Shown here piece after piece: positions 12,012-33,946 of a stretch of DNA of 49,028 nt. The notes beneath the pieces were generated by a model. That model did not search any database. It was not told the origin of the DNA and saw only the letters and a program-made list of their open reading frames with translations. Source of the DNA: an uncultured bacterium (GTDB taxonomy: Bacteria; Cyanobacteriota; Vampirovibrionia; Gastranaerophilales; JAILCC01); assembly GCA_949283935.1 (NCBI GenBank), contig CASDUJ010000001.1, positions 1 to 49,028 of the forward strand. Direction: 5' to 3'. Position 1 is the stretch's first letter. Each line of letters begins with the position of its first letter. The translations under genes and the position numbers were made by a program.

Positions 12012-12581
12012 TTAATATTCAATTCCTTTTCTTGCTTGAACTCCAATATCCCAATAGTGCTTTATGGGCTCAATATTTGATACAAGGTGAGCAAGTTCAA
12101 TTATTTCAGGATTTGCTCTTCTCCCTGTAAGTACTATTTCTAGCTCTTTGGGTTTGTTTATTAAAAAATTTTTCATTTCTTCAACAGAAATAAGATTTAA
12201 ATCTATTGCTATGTTTGCTTCATCTAAAATAATTAGCTGATATTCATGCGAAGCTGCAGCTTTTTGCGCTTCTTCCCAACCTTTTCTTACAACTTCTTTG
12301 TCTTTAGTGTTTATGTTATTCGAATATACAATTCTATCTAAGCCAGCTTGAATAATTTTTATGTGTTTTTTGATTTTTGGAGAAAATTCTCTAAACGCAA
12401 AAAGTTCTCCATAATCACTGCCGCCTTTTGTAAACAAAACAATTAAAACTTTCCAGCCTCTTCCCAAAGCCCGTAGAGCTAGACCTAGAGAAGCAGTAGT
12501 TTTGCCTTTGCCATTACCTGTGTATATTTGAATATAACCAAGTTTGTCAAAATTTGGATTTACAAGCTCATCTTTTTTCAT
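12012..12581 (-). CDS. cobO: Cob(I)yrinic acid a,c-diamide adenosyltransferase
   Basis: The 189-residue enzyme (CobO/BtuR/CobA type) adenosylates corrinoids using ATP. A P-loop GNGKGKTT at 22-29 follows YIQIYT; AGLDRIVYS, ILDEANIAIDLNLI and VLTGRRANPEI are family motifs. No other cobalamin synthesis gene is in the window, so salvage is as likely as synthesis. It follows a small secreted-protein gene by 59 bases. Confidence 0.94.
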   Translation of the reverse strand: MKKDELVNPNFDKLGYIQIYTGNGKGKTTASLGLALRALGRGWKVLIVLFTKGGSDYGELFAFREFSPKIKKHIKIIQAGLDRIVYSNNINTKDKEVVRKGWEEAQKAAASHEYQLIILDEANIAIDLNLISVEEMKNFLINKPKELEIVLTGRRANPEIIELAHLVSNIEPIKHYWDIGVQARKGIEY

Positions 12582-17910: not shown

Positions 17911-19077
17911 GTGCATGTTTCTGTATCAAAAATAGAAAATAGTCAGCTCCTGCAAAATATGGAGAAAAACAAGCTTTCTTTTAAAGGTGGGTACAAGGTT
18001 AGCCGAGATTTGACCCGCAAAATTATTGCAGAAAGTAATCCTGGCGTGCGATTTTTAATGAATTTAGGCAAAAACAATGGAGAAATATTAAATTCAATAG
18101 TTACTGCTGTAGGAACGGCTTTTGTTGCTCCTATATTTATTGCTTTTAATCCTTTTGCAAAAGAAGATAAAGAAACTAAAATGTATTCAGCTTGGCGTCA
18201 GCCTATTTCAGCAGTTATTGCTTTGGCTACGCAAATAGGTATTAATTTAAAATTTAATCATTGGTTAGATAAACTTGCTAGTGCAGGTAAATTGGACAGA
18301 GCTAATTTAGTTGCTAAGCCTCAAGTTTCTTATTTGAAAAAAATTATAAAAACCCAAAAAGTTGATATTCCCAAACAAGATTTACTTGCAGAAATTGAAT
18401 ATATGCAAGATGAAGCTTTCTGGAAGAAAGTAAATCAAGAAAGAGTTAGTAGAAAAAATATACCAATTTCTACAGAAGATTTAATAGACAACAATGCCTT
18501 AAATGAAGCAAAAGCGCAAATCAAAAAAAATTACGAAAAACAAATTTCTTCTATGAGTAAAAAAGAGGCTAATAAATTTATAAATTCAAAAACAATGGAA
18601 TTAGCAAAAAGCAATGTTGATGAAGCTATGAAAATTGAAGCTGCGAACAAATGGCACATAATAAGGTTATCAAAATCAGGTAAATCTGTTAAAGAAGTTG
18701 TTGCAAATTTGCAAGCAAAAGTTGATAAACTTAAAAAAAGAAACGGTTCTTCAAAAGCTATAGCAAGATTTGAATATATGATTGAAAAATTAAACAATTT
18801 AGGAGATTTCAAATACGTTAAAAAACTTGGGAACAATTTTCAAGAGGTATTACAAAGTGTAAAAATCAAAAAAATGGTAAAAGCTGGTATTAATAATGCA
18901 GAAGCAGTATTGAGTTCTTACAAAAAATGGGGAGGAATAATAATTTCTCTCGTAACTTTACCTTTTTCTTGCGGTTTGTTAAATTGGGCATACCCTAGGT
19001 TAATGGAAATTATAATGCCAAATGCTTGTAAAAATAAAATGGAACGTAAACTTGCTAAATCCGGAGGAAAATTCTAA
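17911..19077 (+). CDS. Unknown protein with FKG motif and membrane segments
   Basis: The 388-residue product starts at a GTG after AGTAGG; an ATG at 17959 (MEKNKLSFKGG) is an alternative. KLSFKGG lies at 21-27. A hydrophobic stretch (LNSIVTAVGTAFVAPIFIAF) is followed by a long charged helical region (about 130-330, rich in K and E), and a last hydrophobic segment (IIISLVTLPFSCGLLNWAY) lies near 350-370. I do not recognise a family. The next gene overlaps its stop by one base (TAATG) and also encodes a hydrophobic protein, so the two probably form one membrane complex. Confidence 0.7.
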   Translation: MHVSVSKIENSQLLQNMEKNKLSFKGGYKVSRDLTRKIIAESNPGVRFLMNLGKNNGEILNSIVTAVGTAFVAPIFIAFNPFAKEDKETKMYSAWRQPISAVIALATQIGINLKFNHWLDKLASAGKLDRANLVAKPQVSYLKKIIKTQKVDIPKQDLLAEIEYMQDEAFWKKVNQERVSRKNIPISTEDLIDNNALNEAKAQIKKNYEKQISSMSKKEANKFINSKTMELAKSNVDEAMKIEAANKWHIIRLSKSGKSVKEVVANLQAKVDKLKKRNGSSKAIARFEYMIEKLNNLGDFKYVKKLGNNFQEVLQSVKIKKMVKAGINNAEAVLSSYKKWGGIIISLVTLPFSCGLLNWAYPRLMEIIMPNACKNKMERKLAKSGGKF

Positions 19078-19727
19078 TGAGCATCACTGCTGGAGTCGCA
19101 AACAAAATATTGAATACAAAAGCTGTTACGTATTTGACAAAGCCAAATGCTCCAGCTGCAGCTGCTACAATTGCTCTTATTTCAAATTTAACAAAAGATG
19201 CGGTAAATTGTTATTATTATGTTGCTCAGTCTTTAAACAATGAAAGAATACCTGAAGAAAAAAGAAAATTTGTAGCAGGTCTAGATTTAGCAAATGGTAT
19301 ACTAAATGTATTGGTTCAAACCATTGTAGGTGTTACTTTACCTGTGTTGACAAACAAAGTATTTGAGAAAAATATAGTTCCTAAATTTTTCTCAAAAGAT
19401 GCAATAAGTAAAATGTACACTAAATTAAAGCCCAATGTGCCTTTAGCTGGTTTTGAAGATAAAATGCTTAAAAATAAGGCATTTGCCAAAATAGGTTTGA
19501 GCGTAATTGCTACTTTGGTGGGAACGCAAATTATTGCTAAAAGAATTATAGTTCCATTAATTGCTACACCATTAGCTTCTTATTTTAAAGACAAATTTAA
19601 AAACAATAAAAAATGTGAATGTAGTGATTACGATGGTGATAAAATAAGTTTTGAAAATAATATAAAAAACGATAATCATTCCAAAATAGAAAATATTCCT
19701 AAGTGTTTTGAGGCATTTATGAGATAA
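19077..19727 (+). CDS. Unknown membrane protein paired with the 17911 gene
   Basis: The 216-residue product has several hydrophobic segments (AAAATIALISNL, GILNVLVQTIVGVTLPVL, IGLSVIATLVGTQIIA, IIVPLIATPLASY) and a short hydrophilic C-terminal tail with a CEC pair. GGAGG precedes the ATG, which overlaps the previous stop. Repeated phrases shared with its partner (an N-terminal membrane part, then a PRL/PLI-like end) suggest related folds, but I cannot name a family. Confidence 0.65.
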   Translation: MSITAGVANKILNTKAVTYLTKPNAPAAAATIALISNLTKDAVNCYYYVAQSLNNERIPEEKRKFVAGLDLANGILNVLVQTIVGVTLPVLTNKVFEKNIVPKFFSKDAISKMYTKLKPNVPLAGFEDKMLKNKAFAKIGLSVIATLVGTQIIAKRIIVPLIATPLASYFKDKFKNNKKCECSDYDGDKISFENNIKNDNHSKIENIPKCFEAFMR

Positions 19728-22120: not shown

Positions 22121-22178
22121 TTTGTAATCTATTTATATGGTAAAATAAAGCTGTTAAATATAGTAATTGAGGATAAAA

Positions 22179-23195
22179 ATGGAAAAAAGTCTTATTGTAT
22201 CCGGCATGCGTTCTACAGGGCAGTTGCACCTAGGACATTATTTAGGTGTTTTGCAAAATTGGGTTAAACTTCAAAATGAATTTGAATGTTATTATTTTGT
22301 AGCAGATTTGCATGCTCTTACAACTAAATTTGATAAGACAGAAGATTTAAAACAAAATGTGGAAGATGTAGTTCTTGATTGGGTTGCATCTGGTATAAAT
22401 CCGGAAATATCCACAATTTATTTGCAATCTTTGGTTCCTGAAACTGCAGAATTACATATTTATTTAAGCATGATTACACCTCAAAATTGGGTTGAACGTG
22501 ATCCAACACTAAAAGATATGGTTAAAATATTAAGAGGCGATTTGCAAAATGAAGAGAAAACTTCTAATATATGCAGTTATGGCCTTTTAGGATATCCTGT
22601 TTTAATGACTGCAGATATTTTGACTTTTAACGCAGATTATGTACCTGTAGGCAGTGATCAAATTGCTCATTTAGAGATTTCAAGAGATATAGCAAGAAGA
22701 TTTAACAACATATACAAAGTCGAATTATTTAAAGAACCCAAGCCAAAACTTACCCAAATTCCATTATTCAAAGGGATTGATGGTCAAAAAATGGGAAAAT
22801 CATTTCACAATGATATAAAAATATCTGATAGTGAAGAAGAAACTTCCCAAAAAATAATGAAAGCTATAACTGATCGTTCTCGCCTTCGTAAAAATGATGT
22901 TGGTCACCCAAATGAATGTGAAGTAGTTTTTGATTATTACAAAATTTTTGCGCCACAAAAAATTGATGAAGTTAAATATGAATGTGAAAATGCAAAAAGA
23001 GGTTGCGCTGATTGTAAAAGAGAACTGTGCAAATATGTAAATGAATACTTTAAAGAAATTCGTGAAAATCGTAAGAATCTTCAAGCTAATCCAAAGCTTG
23101 TTAGAGAAATTATATTAAACGGATCACAAAAAGCTAGAATTAAGGCAAAAGAAGTTTTAGCCCAGGTAAAAGATGCAGTAAAAATGTATTATTAG
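22179..23195 (+). CDS. trpS: Tryptophanyl-tRNA synthetase
   Basis: The 338-residue class I synthetase charges tRNA-Trp. HIGH-like HLGH lies at 17-20 and KMSKS-like KMGKS at 204-208; MTADILTFNADYVPVGSDQ is the tryptophan-pocket region. I chose the ATG at 22179 because GAGGA lies 5 bases upstream, rather than the in-frame TTG at 22167. The next gene starts 5 bases after its stop. Confidence 0.97.
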   Translation: MEKSLIVSGMRSTGQLHLGHYLGVLQNWVKLQNEFECYYFVADLHALTTKFDKTEDLKQNVEDVVLDWVASGINPEISTIYLQSLVPETAELHIYLSMITPQNWVERDPTLKDMVKILRGDLQNEEKTSNICSYGLLGYPVLMTADILTFNADYVPVGSDQIAHLEISRDIARRFNNIYKVELFKEPKPKLTQIPLFKGIDGQKMGKSFHNDIKISDSEEETSQKIMKAITDRSRLRKNDVGHPNECEVVFDYYKIFAPQKIDEVKYECENAKRGCADCKRELCKYVNEYFKEIRENRKNLQANPKLVREIILNGSQKARIKAKEVLAQVKDAVKMYY

Positions 23196-23199
23196 AAAA

Positions 23200-23928
23200 A
23201 TGAGTAGAAGAAAAATAGGTTTTTGGGGTGTTCCAAAAAATAAAATAATAACCGAATATCAACAAAAATATCCTGAAAGTGATTTTTTGGATTTATGTAT
23301 GTTTTATGGTGCCAAAAAAACAACAATTTTGCCTGACACAACTTGTAAAATTATTTCTAATATAATGGATAATGCTATTTATTTTAAAAATGATTTAGAT
23401 TGCATAATAGCATCAGTAGGTAAAGAAAAATGTGATTCCGGACGTTTTGTCGCTAAAATTTTAAAAGATATGGGTTACAATATAATATTTTCCCAAAATG
23501 AAACTTATAACGGTAACGAAGAAATAAAAACACCAATATGTACGAGTAATTTGCCACTAGCTGAAAAAATTACCAGAATTACAGCTAATATAATAAAAAA
23601 AGACGAAACTATTTATGAATATTGCGAACCTAAAATGGGTTTTTGGGGAGTTCCTCCTAATGATTTTGGGTTTCTTGAGCTTTTTCCAAATGAAACTCAT
23701 GTTTTTGGCTGGACTCGTTGTGTCGAAGCAAAAAGACCTGCTGATGATGAATTGGAAATTTATGTACAAGAAAATTTACCTACTGTATTTTTCGCTCAAA
23801 CTTTTTGCAATAAAATGCAATTAGCAAAATATTTAGCAAAAAAATATGGTGGCCTTTTTATTGATGTTGACGATTTAGCTACTAATTCAACAAAAGCTAA
23901 AATTCAAGCCTATATGGAGCTCGGTTGA
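23200..23928 (+). CDS. Unknown cysteine-rich protein with duplicated FWGVP motif
   Basis: The 242-residue product shows the same ten-residue pattern twice: KIGFWGVPKN at 5-14 and KMGFWGVPPN at 145-154, so two related halves are likely. It has eight cysteines (including C33, C49, C68, C78, C114, C142, C174 and C203). The end FAQTFCNKMQLAKYLAKKYGG recalls, distantly, the FCNPM-like regions of 2-hydroxyacyl-CoA dehydratase subunits, but I cannot assign it. The next gene, an HgdC-like ATPase, overlaps its stop (TGATG), so it may be that enzyme's partner. Confidence 0.7.
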   Translation: MSRRKIGFWGVPKNKIITEYQQKYPESDFLDLCMFYGAKKTTILPDTTCKIISNIMDNAIYFKNDLDCIIASVGKEKCDSGRFVAKILKDMGYNIIFSQNETYNGNEEIKTPICTSNLPLAEKITRITANIIKKDETIYEYCEPKMGFWGVPPNDFGFLELFPNETHVFGWTRCVEAKRPADDELEIYVQENLPTVFFAQTFCNKMQLAKYLAKKYGGLFIDVDDLATNSTKAKIQAYMELG

Positions 23929-24620
23929 TGTTATATATTGATGCTGGAACTAGTTTTAGTAAAATTATGACAACAAATGGAGAAATGCTAGATAAAATTG
24001 CTCCGATAAAAATTAATGAAGGTAAATATTTTTACATAATTCCATCTCAAAACCTTTCTGAATTGGGAGTTTTATTTGACGCAGGAACAGGTCATATGTC
24101 CAAAGATTACCTAAAAAATGGTGCGAAATTGGAAAATGAAATTTTAGCTTTGGCTTATGGAATAAAAAAAATACAATCTAAACAAGAAAATTTGACTGTA
24201 CTTGATATAGGAAGCAGAGATACTAAATGGGTTCGTTTTGAAAATGGAAAATACAAAGAACTTGATTGGAATACAGCTTGTGCTAGTGCTACAGGTGCTA
24301 CTATTGAAATGATTTGTAGATTTTATAACATAGATGTAAAAATTTTGCCTCCAAATGATGAAAAATATCCGGTAACTTGTGGAGTATTTGGAATGGAAAA
24401 AATTATGGATGAAATTGCGAAAACAAAAAATGTCAATTCTGCTGTAGCAAAATATATTCACGGTATAGCTTTTAATGCTTGGAATTTTGCCCAAAAACCT
24501 AGTAAAATTTTTCTTTCCGGAGGTTTTTGCGAAAATAATTGTTTTGTCAAATCTTTGGAAAAATATTGCGCAGTCGAAAAACTTGGAAGATTTGTTTTAG
24601 TTGAAGGACTTTTTTCTTAA
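23928..24620 (+). CDS. BcrAD/BadFG/HgdC-like ASKHA ATPase (dehydratase-activator family)
   Basis: The 230-residue product has the ASKHA phosphate-1 motif MLYIDAGTSFSK, phosphate-2 VLDIGSRDTKWV at 91-102 and a late LSGGFCENN adenosine motif. C118 (TACASATG) and C151 (VTCGVFGME) correspond to the two cysteines that bridge the single [4Fe-4S] cluster in HgdC dimers. Such proteins inject electrons at low potential into a partner Fe-S enzyme using ATP. No classical dehydratase subunits are adjacent; the FWGVP protein is. I use the ATG at 23928 with GGAG 8 bases upstream. Confidence 0.8.
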   Translation: MLYIDAGTSFSKIMTTNGEMLDKIAPIKINEGKYFYIIPSQNLSELGVLFDAGTGHMSKDYLKNGAKLENEILALAYGIKKIQSKQENLTVLDIGSRDTKWVRFENGKYKELDWNTACASATGATIEMICRFYNIDVKILPPNDEKYPVTCGVFGMEKIMDEIAKTKNVNSAVAKYIHGIAFNAWNFAQKPSKIFLSGGFCENNCFVKSLEKYCAVEKLGRFVLVEGLFS

Positions 24621-24624
24621 AAAC

Positions 24625-24649
24625 AAAAAGAACCTATCTAATAGGTTCT
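24625..24649 (-). terminator. Terminator of tRNA-Cys
   Basis: AGAACCTAT and its exact complement form a 9-bp stem around a 3-base loop; on the minus strand a T-run follows. It stands 4 bases after the tRNA 3' end. Confidence 0.85.
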
Positions 24650-24652
24650 AAA

Positions 24653-24723
24653 AGGCGGCACCCAGATTCGAACTGGGGGTAAAAGCTTTGCAGGCTCCTG
24701 CCTTACCACTTGGCCATGCCGCC
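24653..24723 (-). tRNA. tRNA-Cys (GCA)
   Basis: The 71-base minus-strand sequence folds as a cloverleaf: acceptor GGCGGCA/TGCCGCC, anticodon loop CTGCAAA giving GCA, T-arm CCCAG-TTCGAAT-CTGGG, discriminator U. The anticodon stem includes two G-U pairs. CCA is not encoded. Confidence 0.95.
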
Positions 24724-24792: not shown

Positions 24793-25176
24793 TTAATTTA
24801 TAAATCTGAACAAAGACTTTATTGTTCCCCAAAAATCATAGCGTTTTGGCATAACTGTATCAATATATAATTTTTCATAATCTTCTAGCATATTTTGAGG
24901 TAATGCCTTTCCTTGAGAAAGTATTTTGGCTAATAGTTCCATATATATAATTTGTTCTTGAGCATAATCAGGATTCTTTATTCTTATTTCTTCATCGGCA
25001 TCGTAATGTAAAAGTGCATGCCAAGCTATTTTTAATGATATGTCTTCTACGTTTTTGGGGAAATATTTTATTGCTTCAAATGGCGTGATTACTCCTGAAA
25101 TTATTGAATAAAATAAACTTCCAGTAGCTTCCCTAGCGTTAATTTTTATAATTTCTTGTTTTTTATCTGTAGACAT
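24793..25176 (-). CDS. Unknown protein downstream of the BlaI-type regulator
   Basis: The 127-residue product (from the ATG at 25176) overlaps the end of the BlaI-type gene by 14 bases and so is coupled to it. It is largely helical, with GSLFYSIISGVITPFEAIKYF and IAWHALLHYDADEEIRIK stretches and no signal peptide. I do not recognise the family. A longer frame from 25233 lies almost wholly inside the regulator gene and is unlikely. Confidence 0.6.
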   Translation of the reverse strand: MSTDKKQEIIKINAREATGSLFYSIISGVITPFEAIKYFPKNVEDISLKIAWHALLHYDADEEIRIKNPDYAQEQIIYMELLAKILSQGKALPQNMLEDYEKLYIDTVMPKRYDFWGTIKSLFRFIN

Positions 25177-25534
25177 GAACCAGATTTTTTTCTTCTTTGT
25201 ATTCCATAGCTTTAACAACTTTAGCCATAGCAATTACATCATTTCCAAAATAGTCTAAAGCTACTTTTTTTAAAGCTTTTTCTGCCATTTCTTCTCTTGG
25301 CATTATTGTTTGGTAATTGTATTTTTTACCGCATTTTATTTTGTCTAGCATTCCCTTTTCACTTAATCTGTCTAACACTGTTTTGACTGTTGTGTAAGCC
25401 CATTTTTTACGCGTATTTAAATTGTTCAAACATTCCCAAACTTGATTAACACTCATAAATCCTTCAAATTTGCTTGAATTGTCCCAAATTACATTCATTA
25501 TGAGATTTTCTAATCCGCCATGATTTAAATCCAT
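25163..25534 (-). CDS. BlaI/MecI/CopY-family transcriptional regulator
   Basis: The 123-residue protein has the winged-helix fold of the family: LENLIMNVIWDNSS, MSVNQVWECLN, WAYTTVKTVLDRLSEKGML (recognition helix) and YNYQTIMPREEM (wing and linker), then a dimer helix. Family members repress beta-lactamase or copper genes and are often paired with a BlaR1-type sensor protease; none is here. GGAG lies 7 bases before the ATG. A palindrome lies in its promoter region. Confidence 0.88.
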   Translation of the reverse strand: MDLNHGGLENLIMNVIWDNSSKFEGFMSVNQVWECLNNLNTRKKWAYTTVKTVLDRLSEKGMLDKIKCGKKYNYQTIMPREEMAEKALKKVALDYFGNDVIAMAKVVKAMEYKEEKNLVHVYR

Positions 25535-32513: not shown

Positions 32514-32713
32514 ATTCTTATATTTACTCAAAAAAAAGTCACAAACAAGTACGAAAAACGTAGCTTCCTAATTGTTCTGTGGAGATACGTATTGTTATTT
32601 ATATGAATCGAATAAAAAATTGCAAAAATATTTTTTTAGTTCAATGGGGAATGTATTCTAAAAAAAATTTATTTAAATTTATCTTTATGTTTTCTAATAC
32701 AAAAAAACATAAT

Positions 32714-33946
32714 ATGCTAAATTTTTTACAAATTCCTTTTGAAGAAGAAGTTAATGTTAATAAAAGCAGAATTTTTTTTCAAAACGGGCAAAAATTTTTT
32801 AACAAAAAAATTGCTTACTTGGTAACTAGAGAATTTAGATTGCACGATAATTTTGCTTATAATTTTGCTCGTGAAAATTCTACTCATTTAACAATGTTAA
32901 TATTAGTCCCCTTTTATATGAATAAAACTAAAAATGAATTTTTTCAAAAACAATTCTATTTTTATGAACAAGAACTTAAAAGGCATAAAATTAGTTACAT
33001 AATTTTTGATAACATTAAAAAATTAAAATTTTTTTTGAGAAAGCAGAACATAGAACTTCTAGTAGTAGATTTTAACCCTATTTTAAATGAAAAATTTGTT
33101 AATTTTAACTTTTCAATTGTAGAAATAGATGGCCATAACATTTGTCCAGCAAGAGTAATATCTGAAAAACAAGAATACAATGCGGCTACATTTCGGCCCA
33201 AAGTATACAAAATGATTTCAGAATTTTTAACGGAATATCCTTTTGTTGAACATAAACTTACTCCAGCTGAACAAAAGCTCCAATTTTTTGTGAAAAATAT
33301 TCTAAAAGATTATGCAGACAAAAAAAATAATCCTTTGTTTAATGCAACATCTAATTTGTCACCATATTTAAATTTAGGATTTATTTCTGCTCAAAGAGTA
33401 GCATTGGAAATAATAAAATCTGAGGTGTCTGATTATAACAAAGAAAACTTTTTAGAAGAACTTATTGTCAGAAAAGAACTTAGCGACAATTTTTGTTTTT
33501 ACAATAAAAAATACAAGACCCTTGAAGGAATACCTCAATGGGCAAAAACTACGCTAAATTCTCACATTTTTGATCCCAGACCTATTATTTATTCAATAGA
33601 ACAACTTGAACAAGGTAATACACAAGATGGATTATGGAATGCTGCACAAAAACAACTTTTAAGAGAAGGAACAATACATGGATACATGAGAATGTATTGG
33701 GCAAAAAAATTTCTGGAATGGACAAAAACCCCAAAAGATGCATTAAATTATGCAATATACTTAAATGACAAATACGCATATGATGCTCCGTCAACTAATG
33801 GATATGTAGGAATTTTATGGACCATAGGAGGACTTCACGACAGAGCTTTTCAAGAACGTCCTATAATAGGTAAAATTCGCCCAATGACTTATAATGGTAC
33901 AAAATCTAAATTCAACATAACAGAATACATAAAAAAATATAACTGA
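32714..33946 (+). CDS. phr: Class II CPD photolyase
   Basis: The enzyme of about 410 residues uses FAD and light to split cyclobutane pyrimidine dimers. Class II signatures are VTREFRLHDNFAYNFA, EYNAATFRPKVY, LVVRKEL-like LIVRKELSDNFCFYN, GTIHGYMRMYWAKKFLEW, and the end TNGYVGILWTIGGLHDRAFQERPIIGKIR. The start is unclear: the ATG at 32714 gives a normal N-terminus but no Shine-Dalgarno is seen, and the open frame continues upstream to a GTG at 32579. A bidirectional terminator follows. Confidence 0.92.
   Translation: MLNFLQIPFEEEVNVNKSRIFFQNGQKFFNKKIAYLVTREFRLHDNFAYNFARENSTHLTMLILVPFYMNKTKNEFFQKQFYFYEQELKRHKISYIIFDNIKKLKFFLRKQNIELLVVDFNPILNEKFVNFNFSIVEIDGHNICPARVISEKQEYNAATFRPKVYKMISEFLTEYPFVEHKLTPAEQKLQFFVKNILKDYADKKNNPLFNATSNLSPYLNLGFISAQRVALEIIKSEVSDYNKENFLEELIVRKELSDNFCFYNKKYKTLEGIPQWAKTTLNSHIFDPRPIIYSIEQLEQGNTQDGLWNAAQKQLLREGTIHGYMRMYWAKKFLEWTKTPKDALNYAIYLNDKYAYDAPSTNGYVGILWTIGGLHDRAFQERPIIGKIRPMTYNGTKSKFNITEYIKKYN

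Follow-up and report, generated by a model that had tools for sequence, protein, structure and literature searches.

The window (the whole 49,028-nucleotide stretch of DNA that was analysed) comes from a genome of 1.73 Mb, which is 97% complete. Three genes follow each other closely on the forward strand:

22167 to 23195, + strand: tryptophanyl-tRNA synthetase-like gene (name from sequence alone), ending 4 bp upstream of the FWGVP gene
23200 to 23928, + strand: FWGVP protein, 242 aa, ATG start; predicted Fe-S acceptor or reductase subunit (ORF, family alignment, AF2 model, Foldseek search of the PDB)
23928 to 24620, + strand: HgdC-like (BcrAD_BadFG) ATPase, 230 aa from ATG; predicted electron injector (PF01869, TIGR00241, Foldseek)

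The stop codon of the FWGVP gene and the ATG of the ATPase gene overlap by one base (TGATG). If the in-frame TTG at 23925 were used as an alternative ATPase start, the overlap would be four bases. Neither of the two genes is a chance ORF, since a further 22 genomes of the order have FWGVP orthologues with 50-80% identity. The synthetase-like gene probably shares a transcript with FWGVP at the present locus; in a survey of 81 neighbourhoods it was not a conserved FWGVP neighbour. The pair is immediately followed by a tRNA-Cys (GCA) gene on the opposite strand (24653-24723, - strand), and a terminator-like hairpin (24629-24649) is placed between the end of the ATPase gene and this tRNA gene. Beyond it come a gene for a BlaI-like repressor (PF03965) and a 146-aa ORF without Pfam match, whose reading frames overlap (24793-25534, - strand).

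The initial annotation had described the FWGVP gene as overlapping and paired with the ATPase gene, and the gene-neighbour analysis upheld this. Among 60 order-level relatives FWGVP was found in 23 genomes, the orthologous ATPase in 23, and both in 22. The single-gene exceptions (G025 and G008) are genomes of 88% and 78% completeness, respectively. In 386 genomes of the phylum the corresponding numbers were 74, 74 and 73, with one genome (G373) carrying only FWGVP and one (G327) only the ATPase; co-occurrence of 73/74 in each direction refuted the notion that the two genes never co-occur. Comparison of coordinates revealed that 54 of these 73 pairs are adjacent, and in 19 genomes the two genes are on different contigs and both are kept. 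All 19 unlinked pairs belong to genera g21 and g29. The pair is also separated in G019, a genome of another family. In 52 of 80 named loci the ATPase gene is located immediately downstream of FWGVP on the same strand. The retention of both genes in spite of their separation points to a common function and not to an accident of operon structure, and because the genes are kept or lost jointly across species, they probably form a reducing enzyme system. No third gene was conserved across clades in the 81 neighbourhoods, where only the ATPase recurs beside FWGVP; the IspF-like, NUDIX-like, ExbB/TolR-like and PyrG-like neighbours are each clade-specific. A search for a shared partner of the unlinked copies in the two genera did not find any.

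Pattern matching against GTDB r220 contigs identified 271 stretches that encode a relative, the best 80 of which were inspected. These 80 came from Gastranaerophilales/Melainabacteria or from unnamed bacteria, with the exception of one record titled Acinetobacter, in all probability a rumen bin with a wrong label. The distribution of the pair in the order is patchy; for example, all genus g4 genomes among the 60 order-level relatives lack it. In another class of the phylum one of 18 genomes (G068) has the FWGVP and ATPase genes, adjacent to each other. Among the pair-bearing genomes it is the most distant and the only one found in a different class. Apart from this single genome, the FWGVP family is essentially restricted to Gastranaerophilales. 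In G068 the pair is adjoined by NifU/IscU-like and NifS-like genes (L187:4265-5384, - strand).

The ATPase matched PF01869 (BcrAD_BadFG) with 41.2 bits, above the Pfam gathering score of 31.5, and scored 59.4 bits with the TIGR00241 activase model, below the cutoff of 125.4. The AF2 model of the ATPase (pLDDT 79.8; the cluster loop, residues 115-120, is poorly predicted) was closest in Foldseek to MbdQ, DCCP-R, HadI and HgdC (E 9e-11 to 5e-9), and the top ten matches were all activases of the ASKHA fold. In a profile alignment two of its cysteines fell on the cluster cysteines of HgdC (1hux), HadI (4eht) and DCCP-R (7yyl):

24279 to 24281, + strand: codon of ATPase C118, cluster cysteine, aligned to 1hux and 4eht; conserved in 70/70 members
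24378 to 24380, + strand: codon of ATPase C151, cluster cysteine, aligned to 1hux and 4eht; conserved in 69/70 members, the sole exception being a gap

The description of the ATPase as HgdC-like, with both cluster cysteines kept, was thus borne out by the family alignment and by the register with 1hux and 4eht. The family has a signature of its own: GSRD, with K100 and W101 after it, stands in place of the usual GGQD, and a GGFCxNxC motif contains the near-invariant C201 and C205. The paired ATPase is a divergent activase relative, present in one copy per genome. A second, longer HgdC-like activase (approximately 340 aa; L001:1471-2490, + strand) is encoded between gatA-like and rplS-like genes. 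It appeared as a weak match in the ATPase search and is carried by most genomes of the order that were checked; the paired ATPase is therefore distinct from the general activase.

Sequence searches with FWGVP gave no credible match in Pfam or NCBIfam. None of the 23 aligned members gave a credible Pfam match, and none matched PF06050 (HGD-D) or DUF523; phmmer/hmmsearch comparison with the PDB sequences returned noise only. The AF2 model built from the 23-sequence alignment (pLDDT 88.4, pTM 0.83) consists of two four-stranded alpha/beta domains (residues 5-9, 28-31, 66-72 and 95-98 in domain 1; 146-149, 166-169, 195-199 and 219-222 in domain 2), connected by a linker with one short helix (120-129). 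In a Foldseek comparison with the PDB the top six matches, all with probability 1.00 and E values between 1.9e-7 and 3.3e-5, were the only credible ones: HadC (3o3m/3o3n; the best, E 1.9e-7), DCCP in complex with DCCP-R (7yyl) and MbdN (9g87/9gai). The next match had an E value of 6e-4 and a probability of 0.77. In BzdNO two four-strand alpha/beta domains are separated by a helical bundle, which helps to shape the CoA channel (PMC11971306); such an intermediate bundle is missing from the FWGVP model. The superposition of full-length FWGVP was loose (TM 0.51-0.61, rmsd 8-10 A), which is expected if its domains sit at a different angle and is not proof of an identical cluster site. The profile likeness to HGD-D was weak (E 0.005 in a single comparison). 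The overall hhalign score was modest at 28.2 but higher than in the controls, where 60 column shuffles reached 24.2 at most and the reversed profile 14.7. According to the model, FWGVP is best matched as a 242-residue member of the dehydratase/benzoyl-CoA reductase/DCCP superfamily, which has both domains and no bundle. The earlier remark that no dehydratase lies beside the ATPase holds only at the sequence level (no PF06050 match), but the acceptor itself has the dehydratase fold as judged by Foldseek. The genome's own COG3581-like proteins (L025 and L026 families) gave no meaningful match with the FWGVP profile; as a positive control, the HGD-D core found the L025 profile with E 7e-7. COG3581-like proteins with weak PF06050 matches are encoded in 40/40 genomes of the order that were checked (L025:1444-2487, - strand; L026, ORF from 874, + strand).

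The name-giving motif of FWGVP occurs twice, at exactly the residues given in the initial annotation (5-14 and 145-154):

23212 to 23241, + strand: motif copy 1, KIGFWGVPKN, residues 5-14; first strand plus loop, alpha/beta domain 1
23632 to 23661, + strand: motif copy 2, KMGFWGVPPN, residues 145-154; first strand plus loop, alpha/beta domain 2

The copies are identical at 8/10 residues, and the profiles of the two halves of the protein find each other through the motif (hhalign E 3e-4). The repeat mirrors the construction of the fold from two similar domains and is not a binding site in its own right. The tryptophans of the motif, which are near-invariant, may form part of the cleft wall.

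All eight cysteines counted earlier are present (residues 33, 49, 68, 78, 114, 142, 174 and 203), but only four of them are conserved. C49, C78, C174 and C203 were found in 103/103 FWGVP proteins, and the distant copy in G068 also keeps them. C33, C68, C114 and C142 occur in 4, 2, 18 and 55 of the 103 proteins, respectively, and the assumption that all eight cysteines are important was rejected on this basis. The codons of the invariant cysteines are the following:

23344 to 23346, + strand: C49, predicted cluster ligand; BzdN C73/YjiM C78 position (hhalign register); 103/103
23431 to 23433, + strand: C78, predicted cluster ligand; BzdN C100 position (alignment register); 103/103
23719 to 23721, + strand: C174, fourth invariant cysteine; probably BzdN C263 position (local motif and place after strand 2 of domain 2)
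23806 to 23808, + strand: C203, predicted cluster ligand; BzdN C327 position (hhalign register); 103/103

The two halves of the protein were aligned separately. In the N-terminal half C49 fell on the cysteine of YjiM LPRNLC and C78 on that of YjiM TTC; in the other half C203 took the position of the YjiM QAC cysteine. C174 was placed by eye, by the similarity of its context (VFGWTRC) to YjiM VVGYENC and DCCP VVGEETC. Clusters of the superfamily are either [4Fe-4S] with three cysteine ligands, as in BzdO, or [8Fe-9S] with six, as in the double cubane of BzdN, which is held by C36, C73, C100, C263, C293 and C327 (PMC11971306). In our reference alignment the positions of BzdN C73, C100 and C327 were occupied by cysteine in 9/9 proteins compared, and those of C36 and C263 only in members of the double-cubane type. 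FWGVP has no invariant cysteine at the positions of BzdN C36 and C293. Judged by this register, C49, C78 and C203 appear to occupy the three universal cluster-ligand positions of HGD-D. With a three-cysteine site and one additional cysteine of the distal type, the protein could not ligate an ordinary six-cysteine [8Fe-9S] cluster.

The pair was compared with four known systems. It most resembles DCCP:DCCP-R (E. coli YjiM:YjiL; PDB 6eno, 7yyl), which is likewise encoded by one acceptor gene and one activase gene (yjiM/yjiL). FWGVP has the same acceptor fold as DCCP, and the ATPase belongs to the same family as DCCP-R. As for DCCP, the dedicated activase is encoded next to the acceptor (54 of 73 pairs), and FWGVP shares with DCCP/YjiM the three proximal cluster cysteines and a cysteine of the YjiM C273 type. 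Unlike DCCP, FWGVP is composed of 242 residues rather than about 383-420, lacks the intermediate helical bundle and any PF06050 match, and has four ligand cysteines instead of six, so that the ordinary double cubane is ruled out. The 2-hydroxyacyl-CoA dehydratases (HadBC and HgdAB with activators HadI/HgdC) have in common with the pair the fold (HadC being the best Foldseek match), the three-cysteine pattern and an HgdC-like ATPase. FWGVP differs from them in being a single small subunit without CoA-channel helices, without acyl-CoA genes nearby and without a match to the sequence family. FWGVP has the MbdN/BzdN fold of class I benzoyl-CoA reductases (BzdNOPQ, MbdNOPQ), and the ATPase is structurally nearest to MbdQ, but the pair comprises two genes rather than four, lacks a ligand set for a double cubane and is not found in a context of aromatic degradation. 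The TudS/RudS desulfidases (DUF523) are, like FWGVP, shrunken relatives of the superfamily with one [4Fe-4S] cluster (predicted in the case of FWGVP), whereas they have one domain instead of two, no sequence match to FWGVP and no activase partner.

The likeliest interpretation, to which we assign a probability of roughly two thirds, is that the pair is a minimal ATP-dependent low-potential reductase of two components, similar to DCCP:DCCP-R (YjiM:YjiL). By analogy with DCCP:DCCP-R and HgdC/HadI, the ATPase would be a homodimer with one bridging [4Fe-4S] cluster, to which each subunit would contribute C118 and C151 as ligands. Its predicted ATP binding and hydrolysis would drive single electrons from the ATPase into FWGVP. 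The latter would be a single-chain remnant of the dehydratase fold, in which two similar alpha/beta domains face each other and C49, C78 and C203 bind one cluster, presumably of the [4Fe-4S] type, in the cleft. C174 could be the fourth ligand or it could lie beside an open iron. The reduced cluster would then pass its electrons to a small substrate. Known substrates of DCCP are acetylene, azide and hydrazine. For FWGVP a CoA thioester is improbable, because FWGVP is devoid of the helical bundle that helps to form the CoA channel in its relatives; acyl-CoA genes are missing from the vicinity of FWGVP. The proposal that FWGVP is the Fe-S acceptor of the ATPase appears likely.

The same conserved cysteines could be read differently, with C174 completing a Cys4 [4Fe-4S] site and FWGVP acting as an electron relay or activator for a separate enzyme encoded elsewhere. 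The four invariant cysteines are arranged pseudo-symmetrically, each domain having one after strand 2 and one after strand 3, and the usual open site would need three cysteines only. The lack of a conserved neighbour and the unlinked genes in two genera are also as would be seen with a general-purpose reductant. However, the position of C174 ligates the distal cubane in DCCP, not the proximal one, and neither of the two candidate client families that were tested, FeFe-hydrogenase and the corrinoid adenosyltransferase, co-varied with the pair; we regard a relay as unlikely. A link to corrinoid or FeFe-hydrogenase was rejected by phylogenetic profile: both families are near-universal in genomes with or without the pair, and two genomes (G041 and G046) carry the pair in the absence of both. 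Both families are also missing from genomes of genus g12. The window has a corrinoid adenosyltransferase gene at 12012-12581 (- strand), and most genomes of the order have two copies.

Two further interpretations were considered. TudS, a single-domain relative in the superfamily with a [4Fe-4S]/[4Fe-5S] cluster (PMC11971306), is an example of shrunken members with non-redox chemistry, and NifU/NifS-like genes stand beside the most distant pair (G068). FWGVP could accordingly be a TudS-like desulfidase or sulfur-transfer enzyme with a [4Fe-5S] intermediate, the cluster of which is reset or regulated by the ATPase. This is quite improbable: no FWGVP member matched DUF523, TudS structures were not among the significant Foldseek matches, and non-redox TudS chemistry leaves a fully coupled ATPase unexplained. 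It is still less probable that the pair has no redox function, the ATPase being an ASKHA kinase or regulator and FWGVP its substrate-binding partner with structural or zinc-binding cysteines. The score of the ATPase under the TIGR00241 cutoff (59.4 versus 125.4), the change of GGQD to GSRD and the two extra near-invariant cysteines (C201 and C205) would fit such a role. Against it, the ATPase keeps both cluster cysteines in the HgdC register and its best structural matches are all activases, and FWGVP independently matches the fold of the natural acceptor of activases, including three ligand cysteines.

A low-potential reductase similar to DCCP:DCCP-R is thus the preferred interpretation. The initial annotation had suggested that the pair could be an undescribed two-component low-potential reductase; as regards function this is the likeliest reading, but with the dehydratase/BCR/DCCP fold of the acceptor the pair is a reduced variant of the known DCCP:DCCP-R (YjiM:YjiL) scheme and not wholly new. 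A literature search, in which subscription journals were thinly covered, found no published description of the FWGVP/ATPase pair. Tentatively, and with somewhat less than even odds, we suggest that the pair represents an undescribed minimal branch of the superfamily, which would have one cluster with an unusual ligand set, three proximal cysteines and the distal-type C174, and in Gastranaerophilales would use ATP to drive the reduction of a small molecule other than a CoA compound. If so, the pair would stand either for an ancestral-like state of the superfamily or for its extreme reduction. The potentials attained by ATP-driven Fe-S reductases of this superfamily are among the most negative in biology, and even for DCCP, the archetype, no physiological substrate is known (PMC11971306). 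With 242 residues, four putative ligand cysteines and no CoA-binding bundle, FWGVP is the smallest two-domain version seen in this analysis, and could be a simpler test object for the working of ATP-driven electron injection. With this interpretation a function could also be assigned to two genes that a large share of the uncultured Gastranaerophilales in animal guts and groundwater possess.

Two other regions of the window deserve mention. Two overlapping ORFs of 388 and 216 aa (17911-19727, + strand) are without any Pfam match and are probably lineage-specific. A photolyase-like protein is encoded at 32579-33946 (+ strand; 24.8 bits versus the Pfam cutoff of 26.6) in a genome that looks otherwise anaerobic.
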